The notes under the pieces are model-generated. The model did no database searches. It had not been told where the DNA came from and saw only the letters and a list, made by a program, of their open reading frames with translations. Of a stretch of 32,719 bases of DNA, positions 1,619 to 7,486 are shown one piece after another. The translations under genes were made by a program, and so were the position numbers. This DNA is from Gemmatimonadota bacterium (GTDB taxonomy: Bacteria; Gemmatimonadota; Gemmatimonadetes; Longimicrobiales; RSA9), in NCBI GenBank assembly GCA_017881445.1, contig JADGQX010000022.1, positions 1 to 32,719 on the forward strand. The letters are read 5' to 3'. Numbering within the stretch: the first letter of the stretch is position 1; every line of letters starts with the position of its first letter.

Positions 1619-1909
1619 TTGGCTCGTAGACGGACCGATAAGAAGCCGCAGCGCCCGAAGTCCAGCTTCGAAACCGCCCGCGATGAGTTGTTCCGCGTGA
1701 TCCGCGAGTGCGGCGTGATCGACGCCCACGAGGAGGACAAGGGTCCGTGGATGGAGGAGACAGTGGCGTTCATGGCGGAGCGCTATCCGGACCTCAGCCC
1801 GGCCGAGCTGGGCGCCCTGCGGGACCTGGGGCTTCGTTTCTGCCAGCCGGTGATCCCCCACGGCAAGGAACACGCGCCGCGCTCCAACGAGGAAGCGAAC
1901 GCGGCCTGA
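1619..1909 (+). CDS. Small conserved-looking protein of unknown function
   Basis: A 96-residue protein I do not recognise. It has a basic N-terminus (MARRRTDKK) and then a mainly helical acidic body containing FETARDELFRVIRECGV and DLSPAELGALRDLGLRFC; there is no signal peptide or membrane segment. The start is a TTG at 1619 preceded by AAGGAGG at 1608-1614; the four-base spacing is short, so the start is not certain. Strong third-position G/C bias and the good ribosome-binding site support coding. It stands alone between a candidate promoter (1501-1529) and a non-coding gap of more than 400 bases. Confidence 0.7.
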   Translation: MARRRTDKKPQRPKSSFETARDELFRVIRECGVIDAHEEDKGPWMEETVAFMAERYPDLSPAELGALRDLGLRFCQPVIPHGKEHAPRSNEEANAA

Positions 1910-2322: not shown

Positions 2323-3381
2323 ATGCCCGCACCGTTCCTCAGCTCCGAGGAGTACGATGAACGCGCGCATCGCCAGTACGACTGCGGCGACTACGACGCC
2401 GCCCTGGAAACGCTGAAGGAGGGGCTTCACCTGTATGCGAGCTCCGTAGAGCTCCACGTGGGGATGGGGTACACGCGGCTGGCGCGGGAGGAGTTCGCGC
2501 TGGCCAGGCAGGCGTTCGAGCGGGGCCTGGTGCTGGACCCGGAGCACGACGACGGGCTGGTGGGGCTGGGAGAGACGCTGCTGCGGTTCGGCCGGCACGC
2601 GGAAGCGCTCAGCCTGTTCGAGCAGGCTCGCCGTCTGGGTTGTAGCGAGGACGTGGACCTGCTGCTGTCGATGGGGCGGGGGCTGTACCGGGAGCGGCTG
2701 TACGAGGAGGCACGCGAGGCCTTCGACGAGGCGATCTCGGCGAGCCCGACCAACGCGGAGGCGGAGGCGGCGCTGGGGTACACGCTGCACCGCCTGGGCG
2801 AGGAGGTGGCGGCGCGGCGACACCTGCGCCGTGCGCTGCACCTGGACGGGGACCTGCACGAGGCGCGAATCTACCTGGGTCATCTGCTCTACGACCGGGG
2901 GGAATGGCGGCGAGCGCTGGAGCAGTTCGAGGGCGTGCCGGTGGAGGAGCACTTCGACACGCTGGCGCTCTGGCGGGTCCTGGAGCTGAAGCGGGCGATC
3001 CGCGGCGAGGAGCTCGGCGGTGCGAAGCTGGCGCCGTGGGAAACGCGACTGGAGGAGATCGAGTCGGATTCGGACCCGATCGACGCGCTGCTGGCGGAGA
3101 TCGAGGCGGGCTCGGCGGACGATGGGGACCAGGAGGAGGAGGAGGACGGCGTCGCACACCGGGTACAGACGCCGGAGGGCCACGTTTACGTGGGCAGCTG
3201 GCGGGACATTCTCCGGCAGATCCGGGACGTGCGCGGCGACGATGGTGAGAGCATCGCACAGTTCATGCGTAGGGAAGCCGAGAGAGAGCGGGCGCGCACC
3301 GGAGTTCGCATCCCGGTGGACGATCCGGAGGCGTTCCTGAGAGCCAGTGCCCGCGCGGGACTCCTGCGCATCGAGTGTTGA
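2323..3381 (+). CDS. Soluble tetratricopeptide-repeat protein, unknown partner
   Basis: A 352-residue protein without signal peptide or membrane segment, probably cytoplasmic. Roughly residues 10-215 form tandem TPR helix pairs with the usual Gly/Ala/Ala spacing, for example YDCGDYDAALETLKEGL, ARQAFERGLVLDP, YEEAREAFDEAISASP and GEWRRALEQFEG. The C-terminal third is not TPR: a strongly acidic stretch (DDGDQEEEEDG, about 266-276) and then a possible small domain containing VYVGSWRDILRQIRDVRG. TPRs bind other proteins, so it is probably a scaffold or adaptor. The start has AGGAGG at 2309-2314. The next gene follows within five bases and is also TPR-bearing, suggesting a shared complex. Confidence 0.88.
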   Translation: MPAPFLSSEEYDERAHRQYDCGDYDAALETLKEGLHLYASSVELHVGMGYTRLAREEFALARQAFERGLVLDPEHDDGLVGLGETLLRFGRHAEALSLFEQARRLGCSEDVDLLLSMGRGLYRERLYEEAREAFDEAISASPTNAEAEAALGYTLHRLGEEVAARRHLRRALHLDGDLHEARIYLGHLLYDRGEWRRALEQFEGVPVEEHFDTLALWRVLELKRAIRGEELGGAKLAPWETRLEEIESDSDPIDALLAEIEAGSADDGDQEEEEDGVAHRVQTPEGHVYVGSWRDILRQIRDVRGDDGESIAQFMRREAERERARTGVRIPVDDPEAFLRASARAGLLRIEC

Positions 3382-3385
3382 TCGG

Positions 3386-4402
3386 ATGATCGACTCCTCA
3401 CGCGTGCTCCGGCCGTTATCCGAGGCGGGAGACGCGACAGACAGGCTGGTGACATACGAGCGGCCCGCCGAGTTGGCGGAGGCGCTGGAGGCGACGTGGA
3501 GCGCGGTAGAGCGGTCCCTTCGCCTCTTGCTGCGTTCGCACACGGCGGTGGCGGAGTCGGAGCGGCTGGGCGCGTTCTCGCCCGAGGAGATGCCGCTGCC
3601 GCGACTGGTGGAGGCGCTGCGCAAGCACAACCTGGTGAGCATGGAGTTGGCCGGGCGGGTGCACGAGCTGGCGCAGGCGGCGCAGCGGGCCGCGAGCGGC
3701 GATGTGCGGGCCTCGGACGCGGATGTGGCGCGCCAGGCGGTGATGGACCTGCGCCGGGATGTGATGACGGCGGCGGACAGCCCGATCCAGGAAGTGGCGC
3801 ATCGGGCGGTAGAGACGGGGGCGGTGGAGGAGCCGGTGCAAGCGGTGCGGTCTCCCCGACGCCGGCCGCCGCTGATCCTGGGCCTGATCGGGCTGATCCT
3901 GTTGGCGGTGGCGGGGACCCTGGTCTACTTCTTCTTCCGTGGCGGCAGCGAGGACGCGGCGGGTATGGCGGCGTTCCAGGAGCAGCGGCTGGGCGTCGCG
4001 GAGGAGAAGTTCCGGCAGTCGCTCGACCGCAAGCCGGACGACCTCCTGGCTCTGCTGTACCTGGGCCGGATCTACCGGCGGCAGGGGCGGCTGGCGTCGG
4101 CGGACAGCATGCTCGGGATGGCGATGCACTACGCTCCGGAAGACCCGGATGTCCGACGGGAGCGGGGTCACCTGCTGATGGCTGCCGGGCAGCCGTCCAA
4201 GGCGGCCATCGAGTACGATGCCGCCATCCGCGCGGACCCGAGCGAGAAGCTGAACTGGCTGGCGCTGGTGCAGGCGCTGCGGGCGGCAAACGACCCGCGG
4301 GTCGAGGACGTGATCCAGCGTGCGCCGGCGGACGTCCAGGCGGCGCTCCGCTCCTCGGTGGTGGCGCCCGCGCCGGGGCCGCTTCCCGCGAACCCGCGCT
4401 AG
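3386..4402 (+). CDS. Membrane-anchored TPR protein
   Basis: A 338-residue protein with an N-terminal, mainly helical region of about 160 residues, one transmembrane segment at about 163-185 (LILGLIGLILLAVAGTLVY), and a C-terminal TPR region at about 195-300 (GVAEEKFRQSLDRKPDDLLA, YLGRIYRRQGRLASADSMLG, AAIEYDAAIRADP). The basic patch SPRRRPP just before the membrane helix suggests the N-terminal part is cytoplasmic and the TPRs face the periplasm. The ATG at 3386 is preferred over an upstream start at 3347 that would overlap the previous gene by 35 bases. It is in an apparent operon with the soluble TPR gene before it and the zinc-ribbon gene after it. Function unknown. Confidence 0.85.
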   Translation: MIDSSRVLRPLSEAGDATDRLVTYERPAELAEALEATWSAVERSLRLLLRSHTAVAESERLGAFSPEEMPLPRLVEALRKHNLVSMELAGRVHELAQAAQRAASGDVRASDADVARQAVMDLRRDVMTAADSPIQEVAHRAVETGAVEEPVQAVRSPRRRPPLILGLIGLILLAVAGTLVYFFFRGGSEDAAGMAAFQEQRLGVAEEKFRQSLDRKPDDLLALLYLGRIYRRQGRLASADSMLGMAMHYAPEDPDVRRERGHLLMAAGQPSKAAIEYDAAIRADPSEKLNWLALVQALRAANDPRVEDVIQRAPADVQAALRSSVVAPAPGPLPANPR

Positions 4403-4427
4403 GCCTTCAACCCCAGGCGAGCGATTC

Positions 4428-5267
4428 ATGGACAGCGTAGTCCAGCGGCTGCACCTGGCTCTGGCGGAGGCCCTCGGGCGGCGGCGTCCCGACTTCGAGA
4501 CGGAGCCAGTCACCGTGGCGGAGGTCTACCAGGAGCTGGTGCCGTACCGGAGCGCGCGCACCACGGTGGGCTTCGAGATGAACGCCGACTACGAGCACGC
4601 GCTGCTGCGGCTGCTTTCGGGCGAAGATGGCCTCGTCCGGCTGGAGCCGGAGGAAGTGCGGGACGAGCTGCGGCGCGAGCTGGCCACGCCCAATCCGGAC
4701 GTGACGCTGTTCCGGCGCTATGCGGCCTGCGACGTGTGGGTGTACCAGCCGCCCGCAACGCCGGGAGCCGCTGAGGAGATCGGCCCACCCGAGCCCGAGC
4801 AGCCGACCGACTGGACGCCCGACTGGCTGGAGGCGGCGGCGAGCGAGAAGCTGGAACACGCCGGGAGCCGGCCCTGGCTGGACCCCGAGCCGGAGCCTCC
4901 CCCCGCCGCCGCCGCGCCCGAGCGGGCGGCCGAGCCGAGCCCGGCCGATGCCCCCGCCGACGCCTTCGCGCCCTCCTATTCCGACCTGGACGGGTCCACG
5001 CCGGCCTGGGCGGATACGGCGCCGCAACCCTTGTCGCTGGAACGGGATGTGTCCCCCGGCGCCCCCGGGCGAACGGGTCCGGGCGCCGCCCAGTGCGCCT
5101 TCTGCCGGGGCGCGCTTCCGGCCGACCGGCCGGTCCGGTACTGTCCGTTCTGTGGCGTGGATCAGCAGCTCCGGCCCTGCGAGCGCTGCGGCGAGGTACT
5201 GGAGCGGGGCTGGCGCTACTGCGTGACCTGTGGAGCCGCGGCGCCGGAGCGCGCCGGCTCCGCTTGA
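4428..5267 (+). CDS. Double zinc-ribbon protein of unknown function
   Basis: A 279-residue protein, start at ATG 4428, just after the membrane TPR gene. The N-terminal 115 residues look like a compact helical domain (VAEVYQELVPYRSARTTVGF, EPEEVRDELRRELATPNPDV) I cannot name. A Pro/Ala/Glu-rich low-complexity linker of about 100 residues follows. The C-terminus carries two CxxC-x12/10-CxxC zinc ribbons: Cys223/226/239/242 and Cys251/254/265/268. Such paired ribbons usually act in protein-protein or nucleic-acid contacts. Its stop codon lies inside the -35 element of the next promoter, so the operon probably ends here. Confidence 0.83.
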   Translation: MDSVVQRLHLALAEALGRRRPDFETEPVTVAEVYQELVPYRSARTTVGFEMNADYEHALLRLLSGEDGLVRLEPEEVRDELRRELATPNPDVTLFRRYAACDVWVYQPPATPGAAEEIGPPEPEQPTDWTPDWLEAAASEKLEHAGSRPWLDPEPEPPPAAAAPERAAEPSPADAPADAFAPSYSDLDGSTPAWADTAPQPLSLERDVSPGAPGRTGPGAAQCAFCRGALPADRPVRYCPFCGVDQQLRPCERCGEVLERGWRYCVTCGAAAPERAGSA

Positions 5268-5292
5268 CGGCTCGGAGGACGCGGCCTATCTT
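5264..5292 (+). promoter_or_regulatory. Strong sigma-70-like promoter of the cytochrome c gene
   Basis: TTGACG (5264-5269), exactly 17 bases, then TATCTT (5287-5292). Matches to TTGACA/TATAAT are five of six and four of six with ideal spacing. The -35 overlaps the TGA stop of the zinc-ribbon gene. The cytochrome c start codon is 82 bases downstream of the -10 box. Confidence 0.75.
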
Positions 5293-5373: not shown

Positions 5374-5883
5374 ATGCGCAGGGAGCTGGGGAGCGTTCTG
5401 GCGATCGTGTTCGTCGCGGCATTGGCGACGGCCGCATGCGGCCAGAAGGACAACGGGTCGGCGAACGCGGTAGCGGACAGCACGGCGGCGGCGGCCCCGG
5501 CGGCCACCACGCCGGCGGCGGCGCCGGTCGCGGGCGTCACGGCGCCGGTCGCGGTTCCGCCGAACCTGCCGGCCGGCGTGACCGGTGACATGATCCAGCA
5601 GGGCGCCCAGATCTTCCGTGGGCAGTTGGCCGGGGGCACCTGCTACACCTGCCACAACATGGACGCGAGGGGCACGGCGCTCGCGCCGGACCTGACCACC
5701 AAGCCGCACCTCTGGGTCACCGACTACCCGTCCTACGTGGCGCTGATCACCAAGGGCGTGCCGACGCCGAAGAAGCACCCGGCTCCCATGCCGGCCATGG
5801 GCGGTGCCCAGCTGACGCCGGACCAGGTCAAGGCGGTCGCCGCGTACGAGTGGTCGCTGAGCAATCCTCAGGGCGGCAAGTAA
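5374..5883 (+). CDS. Lipoprotein monoheme c-type cytochrome
   Basis: A 169-residue exported electron carrier. The signal peptide ends in the lipobox ATAAC with lipidated Cys22, so the mature protein should be anchored to a membrane on the periplasmic side. An Ala/Pro/Thr-rich flexible tether follows (about 30-65). The heme-binding motif CYTCH is at 90-94, and the likely axial Met is in PMPAMGG (139-142). The fold is class I cytochrome c (Cytochrome_C domain, about 70-165). The start ATG 5374 has AGGGAGGA at 5361-5368. It has its own promoter (5264-5292) and is followed without a gap by a second lipoprotein gene, so the two may share electron-transfer work. The redox partner is not in the window. 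Confidence 0.92.
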   Translation: MRRELGSVLAIVFVAALATAACGQKDNGSANAVADSTAAAAPAATTPAAAPVAGVTAPVAVPPNLPAGVTGDMIQQGAQIFRGQLAGGTCYTCHNMDARGTALAPDLTTKPHLWVTDYPSYVALITKGVPTPKKHPAPMPAMGGAQLTPDQVKAVAAYEWSLSNPQGGK

Positions 5884-6387
5884 ATGCCCGGCTGGACCCC
5901 GGCGCCGGGGCGCCCCGATTGGGGGCGCCCCGGCGTTCTTCTTTTGTCGGTATTGTTGCTGTGCGCGCTCGCGGCGGCTTGTGGCCGGGACCGCCGTGCG
6001 GCCGGGGCGGGGAAGCACCGGCTTCCGCTCGACGGTGATACGCTCGACCTGGGAAGCGAGGTCACGGTCCACGACGTGCGCCTGGGCGGTGCCGGCGCGA
6101 GCGCGGCCATCCGGCCCGCCGCCCTGACGGTGCGCTCGGGGGACGTGATCCGTTTCGTGGCCGCCGACGCCCGCGGCCACGCCGTCGTCTTCGGGGACAG
6201 CACGCTGGCGCCGGACGTGCGCAGCTTCCTGGAGCGGACGCGCCAGCTGCAAGGGCCGCCACTGGTCAGCACGGGCGCGAGCTGGGTCGTGTCGCTGAAG
6301 GGTGCGCCGGCGGGACGGTATCCGTTCCGCTCGTTGACGCAGGACGCCGCCGGTGTCGTGGTCGTGCAACCCGCCCCCGCCAGATAG
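5884..6387 (+). CDS. Cupredoxin-like lipoprotein apparently lacking copper ligands
   Basis: A 167-residue predicted lipoprotein: hydrophobic segment LLLSVLLLCALAAAC with lipidated Cys33, then a beta-rich domain resembling plastocyanin/azurin-type cupredoxins (LTVRSGDVIRFVAADARGHAVVF; GRYPFRSLTQDAAGVVVV). The first ligand position fits His99, but where type I copper proteins have Cys-x-x-His...Met near the C-terminus this protein has Ser150, Gln153 and no Met, so it probably does not bind copper in the usual way. Its ATG follows the cytochrome stop directly (TAAATG), suggesting coupled translation; a TTG at 5944 is an alternative start. A terminator hairpin lies within the first 60 bases of the frame. 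Family assignment is moderate. Confidence 0.72.
   Translation: MPGWTPAPGRPDWGRPGVLLLSVLLLCALAAACGRDRRAAGAGKHRLPLDGDTLDLGSEVTVHDVRLGGAGASAAIRPAALTVRSGDVIRFVAADARGHAVVFGDSTLAPDVRSFLERTRQLQGPPLVSTGASWVVSLKGAPAGRYPFRSLTQDAAGVVVVQPAPAR
5903..5946 (+). terminator. Intrinsic terminator hairpin inside the start of the cupredoxin ORF
   Basis: CGCCGGGGCGCCCC (5903-5916) and GGGGCGCCCCGGCG (5922-5935) form a perfect 14-bp stem with loop GATTG, followed at once by the T-rich tract TTCTTCTTTT (5936-5945). This is a textbook rho-independent terminator for the cytochrome c transcript, yet it lies within the first 21 codons of the following reading frame. It could end most transcripts and let a fraction read through. 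Confidence 0.85.
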
Positions 6388-6427
6388 CCGGGGGCCGTTA
6401 CCCTCGAGCTCCGTCAGGCCCGGCTCC

Positions 6428-7486
6428 ATGCCCAGGATCGCTCTCATACCCGGTGACGGCATCGGCCCCGAAGTGACCGCGGAGGCCCGGAAGGTCCTGG
6501 AGTCCGTGGCGGCGAGCGAGGGGCTGGCGCTGGATCTGGTGCAGTGGCCGCACGGCGCCCAGCGCTACCTGGACACGGGGGCGACCATCACGCCCGAGGA
6601 GATGGCGGAGCTGGAGCGGGACTACGACGCCATTATGCTGGGCGCACTGGGCGATCCGCGCGTGCCCGGCAACGAACACGCCCGCGACATCCTGCTCGGC
6701 CTCCGCTTCAAGCTCGACCTCTACATCAACCTCCGGCCGGTCAAGCTCGTGGATGCCCGGTTCTCGCCGCTGAAGGGCGTGGCGGCGGCCGACGTGGACA
6801 TGGTCATCGTGCGCGAGAACACGGAGGGCGTCTACGTCGGGCTGGGAGGGACCTTCAAGCGGGGGACGCCGGACGAGCTGGCGATCGAGGAAGACGTCAA
6901 CACGCGCAAGGGCGTGGAGCGAATCGTGCGAGCGGCGTTCGCTTACGCGCGCGAGCACGGCCGCAGGCGTGTTACCCTGGCCGACAAGGCCAACGCCATG
7001 CCGAACGCGGGCGGACTGTACCGGCGGGTGTTCGCGGAGGTCGCCCGGGAGTATGGCGAAATCACATCCAGCGCCATGTACGTGGACGCCATGGCCATGG
7101 ACATGGTGCTGCACCCCGCGAAATACGATGTGGTGGTGGCGTCCAACCTGTTCGGCGACATCCTGAGCGACCTGGCCGCGGCGCTGGCCGGCGGGCTGGG
7201 CATCGCACCCTCGGCCAACCTGCACCCGGGCAAGCCGGGGCTGTTCGAGCCGGTCCACGGGTCCGCGCCGGACATCGCGGGGCAGGATCGCGCCAACCCG
7301 CTGGCGTCGGTCCTGACGGCGGCGCTCATGCTGGAGCACCTGGGGAACGCGGGCGCGGCGGCGCGCGTCGAGGCCGCCGTCGACGCCTCCATCCGTGCGG
7401 GGGCGACGACGCCCGATCTCGGCGGAACCCTGGGCACCGGGGCCGTCGGGGATTGGATTTGCAGGGAACTCGAGAAAGGCCGCTGA
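6428..7486 (+). CDS. Isopropylmalate/isocitrate-type beta-decarboxylating dehydrogenase
   Basis: A 352-residue cytosolic NAD(P)-dependent enzyme of the LeuB/Icd family, which oxidises a 2-hydroxy acid and decarboxylates it using Mg2+. Visible family marks: IPGDGIGPEV (6-16), the substrate Arg region LYINLRPVK, the metal-binding segment NLFGDILSDLAAALAGGLG, and the cofactor loop EPVHGSAPDIAGQDRANP. Asp in SAPD is the usual mark of NAD preference; NADP isocitrate dehydrogenases have Lys there. The substrate loop reads VRENTEGVYVG (128-138), like isocitrate, homoisocitrate and tartrate dehydrogenases rather than the typical LeuB RELTGG. No leuC/leuD genes are adjacent. The substrate is therefore unsettled: 3-isopropylmalate, isocitrate and tartrate/malate are all possible. 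Start ATG 6428 precedes the first beta strand directly. Confidence 0.88.
   Translation: MPRIALIPGDGIGPEVTAEARKVLESVAASEGLALDLVQWPHGAQRYLDTGATITPEEMAELERDYDAIMLGALGDPRVPGNEHARDILLGLRFKLDLYINLRPVKLVDARFSPLKGVAAADVDMVIVRENTEGVYVGLGGTFKRGTPDELAIEEDVNTRKGVERIVRAAFAYAREHGRRRVTLADKANAMPNAGGLYRRVFAEVAREYGEITSSAMYVDAMAMDMVLHPAKYDVVVASNLFGDILSDLAAALAGGLGIAPSANLHPGKPGLFEPVHGSAPDIAGQDRANPLASVLTAALMLEHLGNAGAAARVEAAVDASIRAGATTPDLGGTLGTGAVGDWICRELEKGR

Follow-up and report, generated by a model that had tools for sequence, protein, structure and literature searches.

Conserved and modular genes for two TPR proteins and a zinc-ribbon protein in Gemmatimonadota

Three adjacent genes of a Gemmatimonadota bacterium, here called A, B and C, were analysed in a stretch of 32,719 nucleotides (contig JADGQX010000022.1 of assembly GCA_017881445.1), which is referred to as the window. 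They encode a soluble tetratricopeptide repeat (TPR) protein, a single-span membrane protein with TPRs and a protein ending in a double zinc ribbon. The trio is conserved and is more modular than the original prediction from the window sequence had held. A and B are tentatively regarded as a cross-membrane adaptor of Gemmatimonadota with C as a separable partner, a reading that is based on the adjacency of A and B and on the kinds of domain found.

According to this reading, A would be a cytosolic TPR scaffold ending in a domain of its own, which the cytosolic N-terminal domain of B would hold at the inner membrane. The TPRs of B would face the periplasm and pick an envelope client. Where the genes adjoin, the winged-helix-like domain and zinc ribbons of C would bind to A or recruit a second client. 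The reading thus supposes binding of A to B and of C to A, an N-in/C-out orientation of B and a client of some kind. The label of an assembly platform, attached to the genes by the original prediction, is likewise something that we infer.

Domain structure of the three proteins

The three open reading frames (ORFs) lie on the + strand. Gene A (2323..3381) encodes a TPR protein of 352 aa without membrane segment, gene B (3386..4402) a protein of 338 aa with a single membrane span, and gene C (4428..5267) a protein of 279 aa in which a variable linker joins an N-terminal domain to a double zinc ribbon. The ORF coordinates give gaps of 4 bases between A and B and 25 bases between B and C, in agreement with the original prediction. 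The genes are real and correctly placed. They are also more than a product of chance: all three proteins recur, conserved, across many genomes. A promoter-like match at 5264-5292, at the end of C and ahead of a cytochrome gene, would fit A-B-C as one unit; one such match was found against 0.3 expected, but a match to a consensus does not demonstrate function, and the phylum may use other promoters.

The TPR region of A (residues about 9-205, 2347..2937, + strand) scored 69.6 bits against PF07719, above the cut-off of 27. The highest hydropathy over 19 residues was 0.43, indicating no membrane segment. An acidic, variable linker follows (residues about 249-277, 3067..3153, +). The protein closes with a domain of 75 residues (278-352, 3154..3378, +) predicted as strand-strand-helix-helix-helix-strand, for which AlphaFold2 gave a confident model with a mean predicted local distance difference test (pLDDT) score of 91.2. 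It occurs as a single copy in its own genome. The soluble TPR protein was described correctly at the outset, but the acidic stretch taken for its tail is a linker, since a conserved and confidently predicted domain comes after it. No convincing match to this domain was obtained in Pfam, PDB sequences or folds; its model found no Foldseek match at E<=0.001, and the best VIA hit had a Z of 3.2 over 58 residues. Viral relatives were also searched for, and none of 39 pattern-matching stretches encodes one. The A frames of three loci (L039, L040, L055) stop after 270-287 residues and lack the C-terminal domain; in one of these (L040, genome G007) there are stops within the A frame and B is missing too.

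Protein B begins with a weakly conserved soluble domain, probably cytosolic, for which no family was found (residues about 1-130, 3386..3775, +). A single transmembrane segment was located by hydropathy (residues 163-181, 3872..3928, +), followed by a TPR region that is probably periplasmic (residues about 191-290, 3956..4255, +; PF07719 37.4 bits, above the cut-off of 27). Exactly one hydrophobic segment was present in all 32 B homologues examined. In these proteins lysine plus arginine within 15 residues averaged 3.2 ahead of the span and 2.5 after it, and aspartate plus glutamate, summed by hand, averaged 0.9 ahead and 2.3 after. The net charge leans to N-in and is a weak indicator of orientation. 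Thus the single span proposed originally was borne out, and TPRs on the opposite side of the membrane from A are plausible, at the strength that a weak charge bias allows. Pfam searches with all 28 members of the B N-terminal alignment (A4) gave weak, scattered matches, and PDB sequence profiles gave no family. HAMP was matched by 4 of the 28 members (best E 0.0022) and was dismissed as weak. A resemblance to HEPN-like helical domains was considered and found no support in the profiles: no HEPN family appeared among the weak matches of the 28 members or in the PDB sequence search.

In C, the double zinc ribbon (residues 223-270, 5094..5237, +) carries four CxxC motifs and scored 27.4 bits against Pfam DZR (PF12773), which is 0.1 bit over the cut-off of 27.3. 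Of 99 distinct C proteins, 97 had four CxxC motifs, shortened or cut-off proteins having been removed by length beforehand. C has no membrane segment. The early description of C as linker-rich with two terminal zinc ribbons is in accordance with these results. Two contigs of one assembly (L124, L136) encode C relatives in which a segment that looks by eye like a coiled coil replaces the zinc ribbons. C resembles the DZR family in its eight paired cysteines, which may bind zinc; it differs by its N-terminal domain, for which no convincing Pfam match was found.

This N-terminal domain (residues about 1-110, 4428..4757, +) is acidic and winged-helix-like at most, as judged from the predicted model and fold search. 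The model was confident (pLDDT 92.7). VIA gave a Z of 5.6 to viral topoisomerase II (root-mean-square deviation 3.2, 90 residues aligned) and to ORC1 (3.1-3.2, 85 aligned), with gyrase and LexA lower; a Z below 8 may mean just a common arrangement. Foldseek found no match at E<=0.001, its best E being 0.73. The winged-helix regions among these neighbours (ORC1, gyrase, LexA), and the position of C ahead of leuB or thiolase in loci without A, would suit an explanation in which C is a DNA- or RNA-binding regulator of the leuB-thiolase region, combining a winged helix with zinc ribbons and unrelated to A and B. However, the fold scores stay in the range just described, and the domain has a median isoelectric point of 5.0 and a net charge of -6 over 62 sequences, an acidity that speaks against simple DNA binding. 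Such a regulator is considered improbable.

Low fold-search scores for the A and C domains do not prove that their folds are new. Every member of the alignments A2 (42), A3 (62) and A4 (28) was compared with Pfam, and no match was common to more than four members; PDB sequence profiles of these domains gave a best E of 0.017. Among the known families tested, A, B and C matched none beyond the general families of TPRs and double zinc ribbons. The initial statement that no known family explains all three holds for the libraries searched. A defence system was rejected as a candidate: none of the three proteins matched PADLOC-DB 2.0.0 at E<=0.01, and their conservation is wide. No account of these genes was found in the literature on Gemmatimonadota TPR or zinc-ribbon proteins, as judged by titles and abstract openings.

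Distribution across the phylum

Two genome sets were used, one of 61 genomes that included the genome of the window (G000, in which the window is contig C109 of an assembly of 420 contigs) and a set of 298 Gemmatimonadota genomes searched with profiles. A was detected at E<=1e-40 in 47 of the 61 genomes and C in 41, the listed match in two genomes (G035, G048) spanning the zinc ribbons only. Among the 298 genomes the C-terminal domain of A was found in 250, with one match each except for two in G214 and G303. The N-terminal domain of C was found in 220 and that of B in 72. Of these 72, A was present in 71, C in 66 and all three in 65.

A and C occurred together in 207 of the 298 genomes, with A only in 43, C only in 13 and neither in 35. 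This is more often than expected under independence (Fisher p 7e-14, a value that ignores kinship and is thus overstated). Genome searches for A and B relatives covered the phylum, and the pattern scan for C gave 80 named loci, the best of 90. Among these 80 loci with a C relative, 78 bear the name of Gemmatimonadota or a subgroup, one is named 'Bacterium HR33' and one Gammaproteobacteria. This contig labelled Gammaproteobacteria (L137, Ww582) has the order small protein, A, C and is probably mis-binned.

Gene order and adjacency

The adjacency of A and B was nearly constant. Among the matches listed, B comes immediately after A, in the same orientation, in 40 of 41 genomes, and the matched domains are 3-178 bases apart. 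In the exception (G275) the B match is weak (E 6.9e-4) and lies on a different contig from A; G139 has an additional weak B match (E 1.7e-4), likewise off the contig of its A. Twenty loci around A from other families were also compared. BLAST spans nearly all of A in 19 of them, at 42-51% identity, and in the remaining one (L162) residues 117-350 were aligned, the locus holding a stretch of bases that read as unknown. A B homologue adjoins A in nine of the 20, where A is 44-49% identical to that of the window; M16 peptidase genes always follow, with an ABC transporter between in four.

The position of C was analysed in 39 loci from 38 genomes, which were picked for a C match and are uninformative on A or B alone; G035 and G048 are outside this set. 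The order A-B-C was found in 22 loci (7 of family f1 and 15 of family f3, besides the window), A and C without B in 14 (12 of family f2, one f1 and one f3) and C only in three, all at contig ends. The three genes were therefore found together in other genomes, the trio being kept in two families, f1 and f3, so that the absence which the original prediction had named as counting against it did not occur. In the 80 named loci, which overlap with the 39, A stands ahead of C on the contig in 63, with B between in eight. The other 17 lack A; four of them (L102, L109, L122, L124) are short or odd, and in L109 the small protein described below and C are present with no A above threshold in the ~900 bases between. 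Comparison of the remaining 13 gave a leuB-like gene after C in 11, thiolase in L128 and neither in L144; in L145 and L149 the contig end is so near that A may lie beyond.

A locus of a distant family (L164, family f7) has the order small protein, CorC-like, A, C, LeuB-like, thiolase and SPFH-like, the flanking names being assigned by eye. A and C overlap here by four bases, and C was confirmed by profile (E 6.4e-15). The A-C adjacency is probably old. The order at this locus is that of the window without B, which suggests that the older arrangement was A-C-leuB-thiolase and that A, or A-B, would have become separated from C in other families. A place comparison of the matches listed covered the places of A (113), B (59) and C (98), plus six A-C pairs and one A-B pair, and A and C were adjacent in 44 of 101 genomes, all in families f1-f3.

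Weighing the proposed adaptor against possible old synteny

In favour of the adaptor reading are the wide presence of the C-terminal domain of A, the presence of A in 71 of the 72 genomes with B, the near-constant A-B adjacency, the probably old A-C adjacency, the co-occurrence of A and C, and a membrane span that B has and A and C lack. Joint absence of genes counts on the same side. Five genomes (G012, G022 and G026 of one genus, G034 and G186) lack A, C and the cupredoxin gene at once, with synteny kept on both sides: the small protein, c31 and c19 before, leuB and thiolase after, and 2-86 bases separating the c19 match from that of leuB. Separate absence of C was seen as well, and in G016 a diverged A lies between c31 and leuB without C.

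Several observations weigh against the adaptor reading. Family f2 has 12 loci with A and C, and B is absent from every one of them, so that A can at times do without B. One fragmented genome with B (G277) has no A match, and six of the 72 genomes with B have no C match. G010 and G003 keep A, B, cytochrome and cupredoxin without a detectable C, and G042 keeps A and cupredoxin without C. Because these three and G016 retain A, C is dispensable for keeping A. A and C are apart in 57 of the 101 genomes among the matches listed, all in other families of the class; six of these pairs of places (G280, G250, G082, G090, G194, G278) were counted as apart with A and C on different contigs, which in fragmented genomes is no strict proof of distance. 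The joint loss may represent one or few deletions in related genomes. The A-C rate correlation given leuB was 0.46, no better than the 0.49 of cupredoxin and the small protein, and it fell to 0.25 when thiolase served as control; fragments and stop-containing matches were left out, some genomes occur twice among the loci, and the correlation is uninformative. Finally, a surplus of lysine and arginine ahead of the B span was present in 15 of 32 proteins, with equal numbers in 10 and fewer in 7, so that the charge bias is weak.

A rival explanation is old synteny, in which A and B cooperate, C has its own job, and C, cytochrome, cupredoxin and leuB stayed adjacent through slow rearrangement. The loss of C where A-B remains, the leuB-like gene after C in 11 of the 13 compared loci without A and the lack of a special A-C signal in the rate correlation are consistent with it. 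Against it stand the overlap of the A and C genes in the distant family, the co-occurrence of A and C in 207 of 298 genomes and the joint loss in five. Old synteny is regarded as a possible explanation on the less likely side. The adaptor reading with a separable C is kept as the favoured one: A-B stands as a near-constant pair, while an obligate trio does not, since C is separable and family f2 lacks B.

Flanking genes and comparison with electron-carrier assembly

Upstream of A lies the small conserved protein mentioned above (96-aa ORF, 1619..1909, +), of ~90 residues with the pattern ARDELF..HI.RCGV...ERYP. No Pfam match and no known family was found for it. A relative was present within 17-18 kb around A in 13 of the 20 loci from other families, even with A and C apart (L161, L163, L164, L166, L167, L169-L173, L177, L179, L180). 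Another small protein (MFDWLRRRRLS...) is encoded in the opposite direction to A in 14 loci of families f1 and f3 (among them L052:10663-10977, L062:11306-11611 and L043:6618-7028), with none seen in the window; the one tested had no Pfam match.

Downstream of C, a c-type cytochrome was assigned by domain search and locus comparison (5374..5883, +). It is followed by a plastocyanin-like protein, the cupredoxin lost with A and C in the five genomes (5884..6387, +), which scored 28 bits against a cut-off of 88, and by a putative LeuB-like dehydrogenase (6425..7486, +), placed by locus comparison and named from its sequence. A PilT-like ATPase was seen in seven loci (L045:11921-13003, L034:5928-7238, L032, L036, L041, L053, L069), mostly directly after the leuB-like gene, with an MshEN-domain protein beside it in four of the seven.

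Seven of the 22 trio loci end at C at a contig end; in the remaining 15 the cytochrome follows C in 14, five of these also with a cupredoxin match. This raises the explanation that periplasmic TPRs of B would handle the adjoining c-type cytochrome and cupredoxin, in the manner of CcmI/CycH, which are membrane-anchored periplasmic TPR proteins. B resembles them in being membrane-anchored, with TPRs that are probably periplasmic, and, within this bacterial order, in lying close to a gene for a c-type cytochrome; the joint loss of A, C and cupredoxin also agrees. The match of B to TPR_CcmH_CycH (PF23914) is weak at 22.3 bits, however, and that of A reached 30.8, both under the cut-off of 42. The neighbours of B vary between families, M16 peptidase genes following A-B in the nine loci of other families with the ABC transporter between in four, and family f2 lacks B though cupredoxin is present in 9 of its 12 loci. 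An envelope electron-carrier assembly factor is thus an improbable identity for B.

Comparison with TPR scaffolds

MamA is the TPR scaffold of magnetosomes. A shares with it the character of a soluble TPR protein, and MamA was the best NCBIfam match of A; the difference lies in the score, 77.1 bits against the NF040959 cut-off of 200.

LapB carries a membrane anchor and brings LpxC to the protease FtsH. LapB (YciM) is described as TPRs plus a rubredoxin-like domain and as a scaffold recruiting LpxC (PMC7730581), an example of a TPR scaffold that carries a small metal domain and delivers an enzyme to proteolysis. The trio is alike in combining a TPR scaffold with a small metal-binding domain. 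It differs in being split over three chains, in having a double zinc ribbon and extra domains without relatives, and in TPRs that probably lie on both membrane sides; TPRs reside in A and B and the zinc ribbons in C, whereas LapB joins TPRs and a rubredoxin-like domain in one chain.

A split LapB-like adaptor would have A and C sharing the task of LapB, with B as membrane anchor. LpxC is present in the genome, and no gene exceeded the LapB cut-off (NF008757, 363 bits): A scored 27 bits, and the whole-genome best, again A, was 25 bits. On the other side, many TPR proteins match likewise, with control matches in 13 of 14 genomes and over the cut-off in one. The metal domain of C matches a double zinc ribbon, and C went unmatched in 43 of the 250 genomes that have A. 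The resemblance is not specific, nothing in particular pointing to LapB, and a split LapB-like adaptor is judged to be an improbable role for the trio.

Conclusion

The favoured reading of A and B as a cross-membrane adaptor has a stronger form, in which the adaptor would be trans-envelope, peculiar to Gemmatimonadota and built on new domain families (those at the C-terminus of A and at the N-terminus of B), would include C as a third part, and could replace a control such as LapB in the FtsH-driven turnover of LpxC. This form is unlikely. The C-terminal domain of A, present in 250 of the 298 phylum genomes searched, was recognised by none of the libraries used, and it is in widely kept genes of this kind that a little-studied phylum may have its own ways of carrying out basic envelope tasks.

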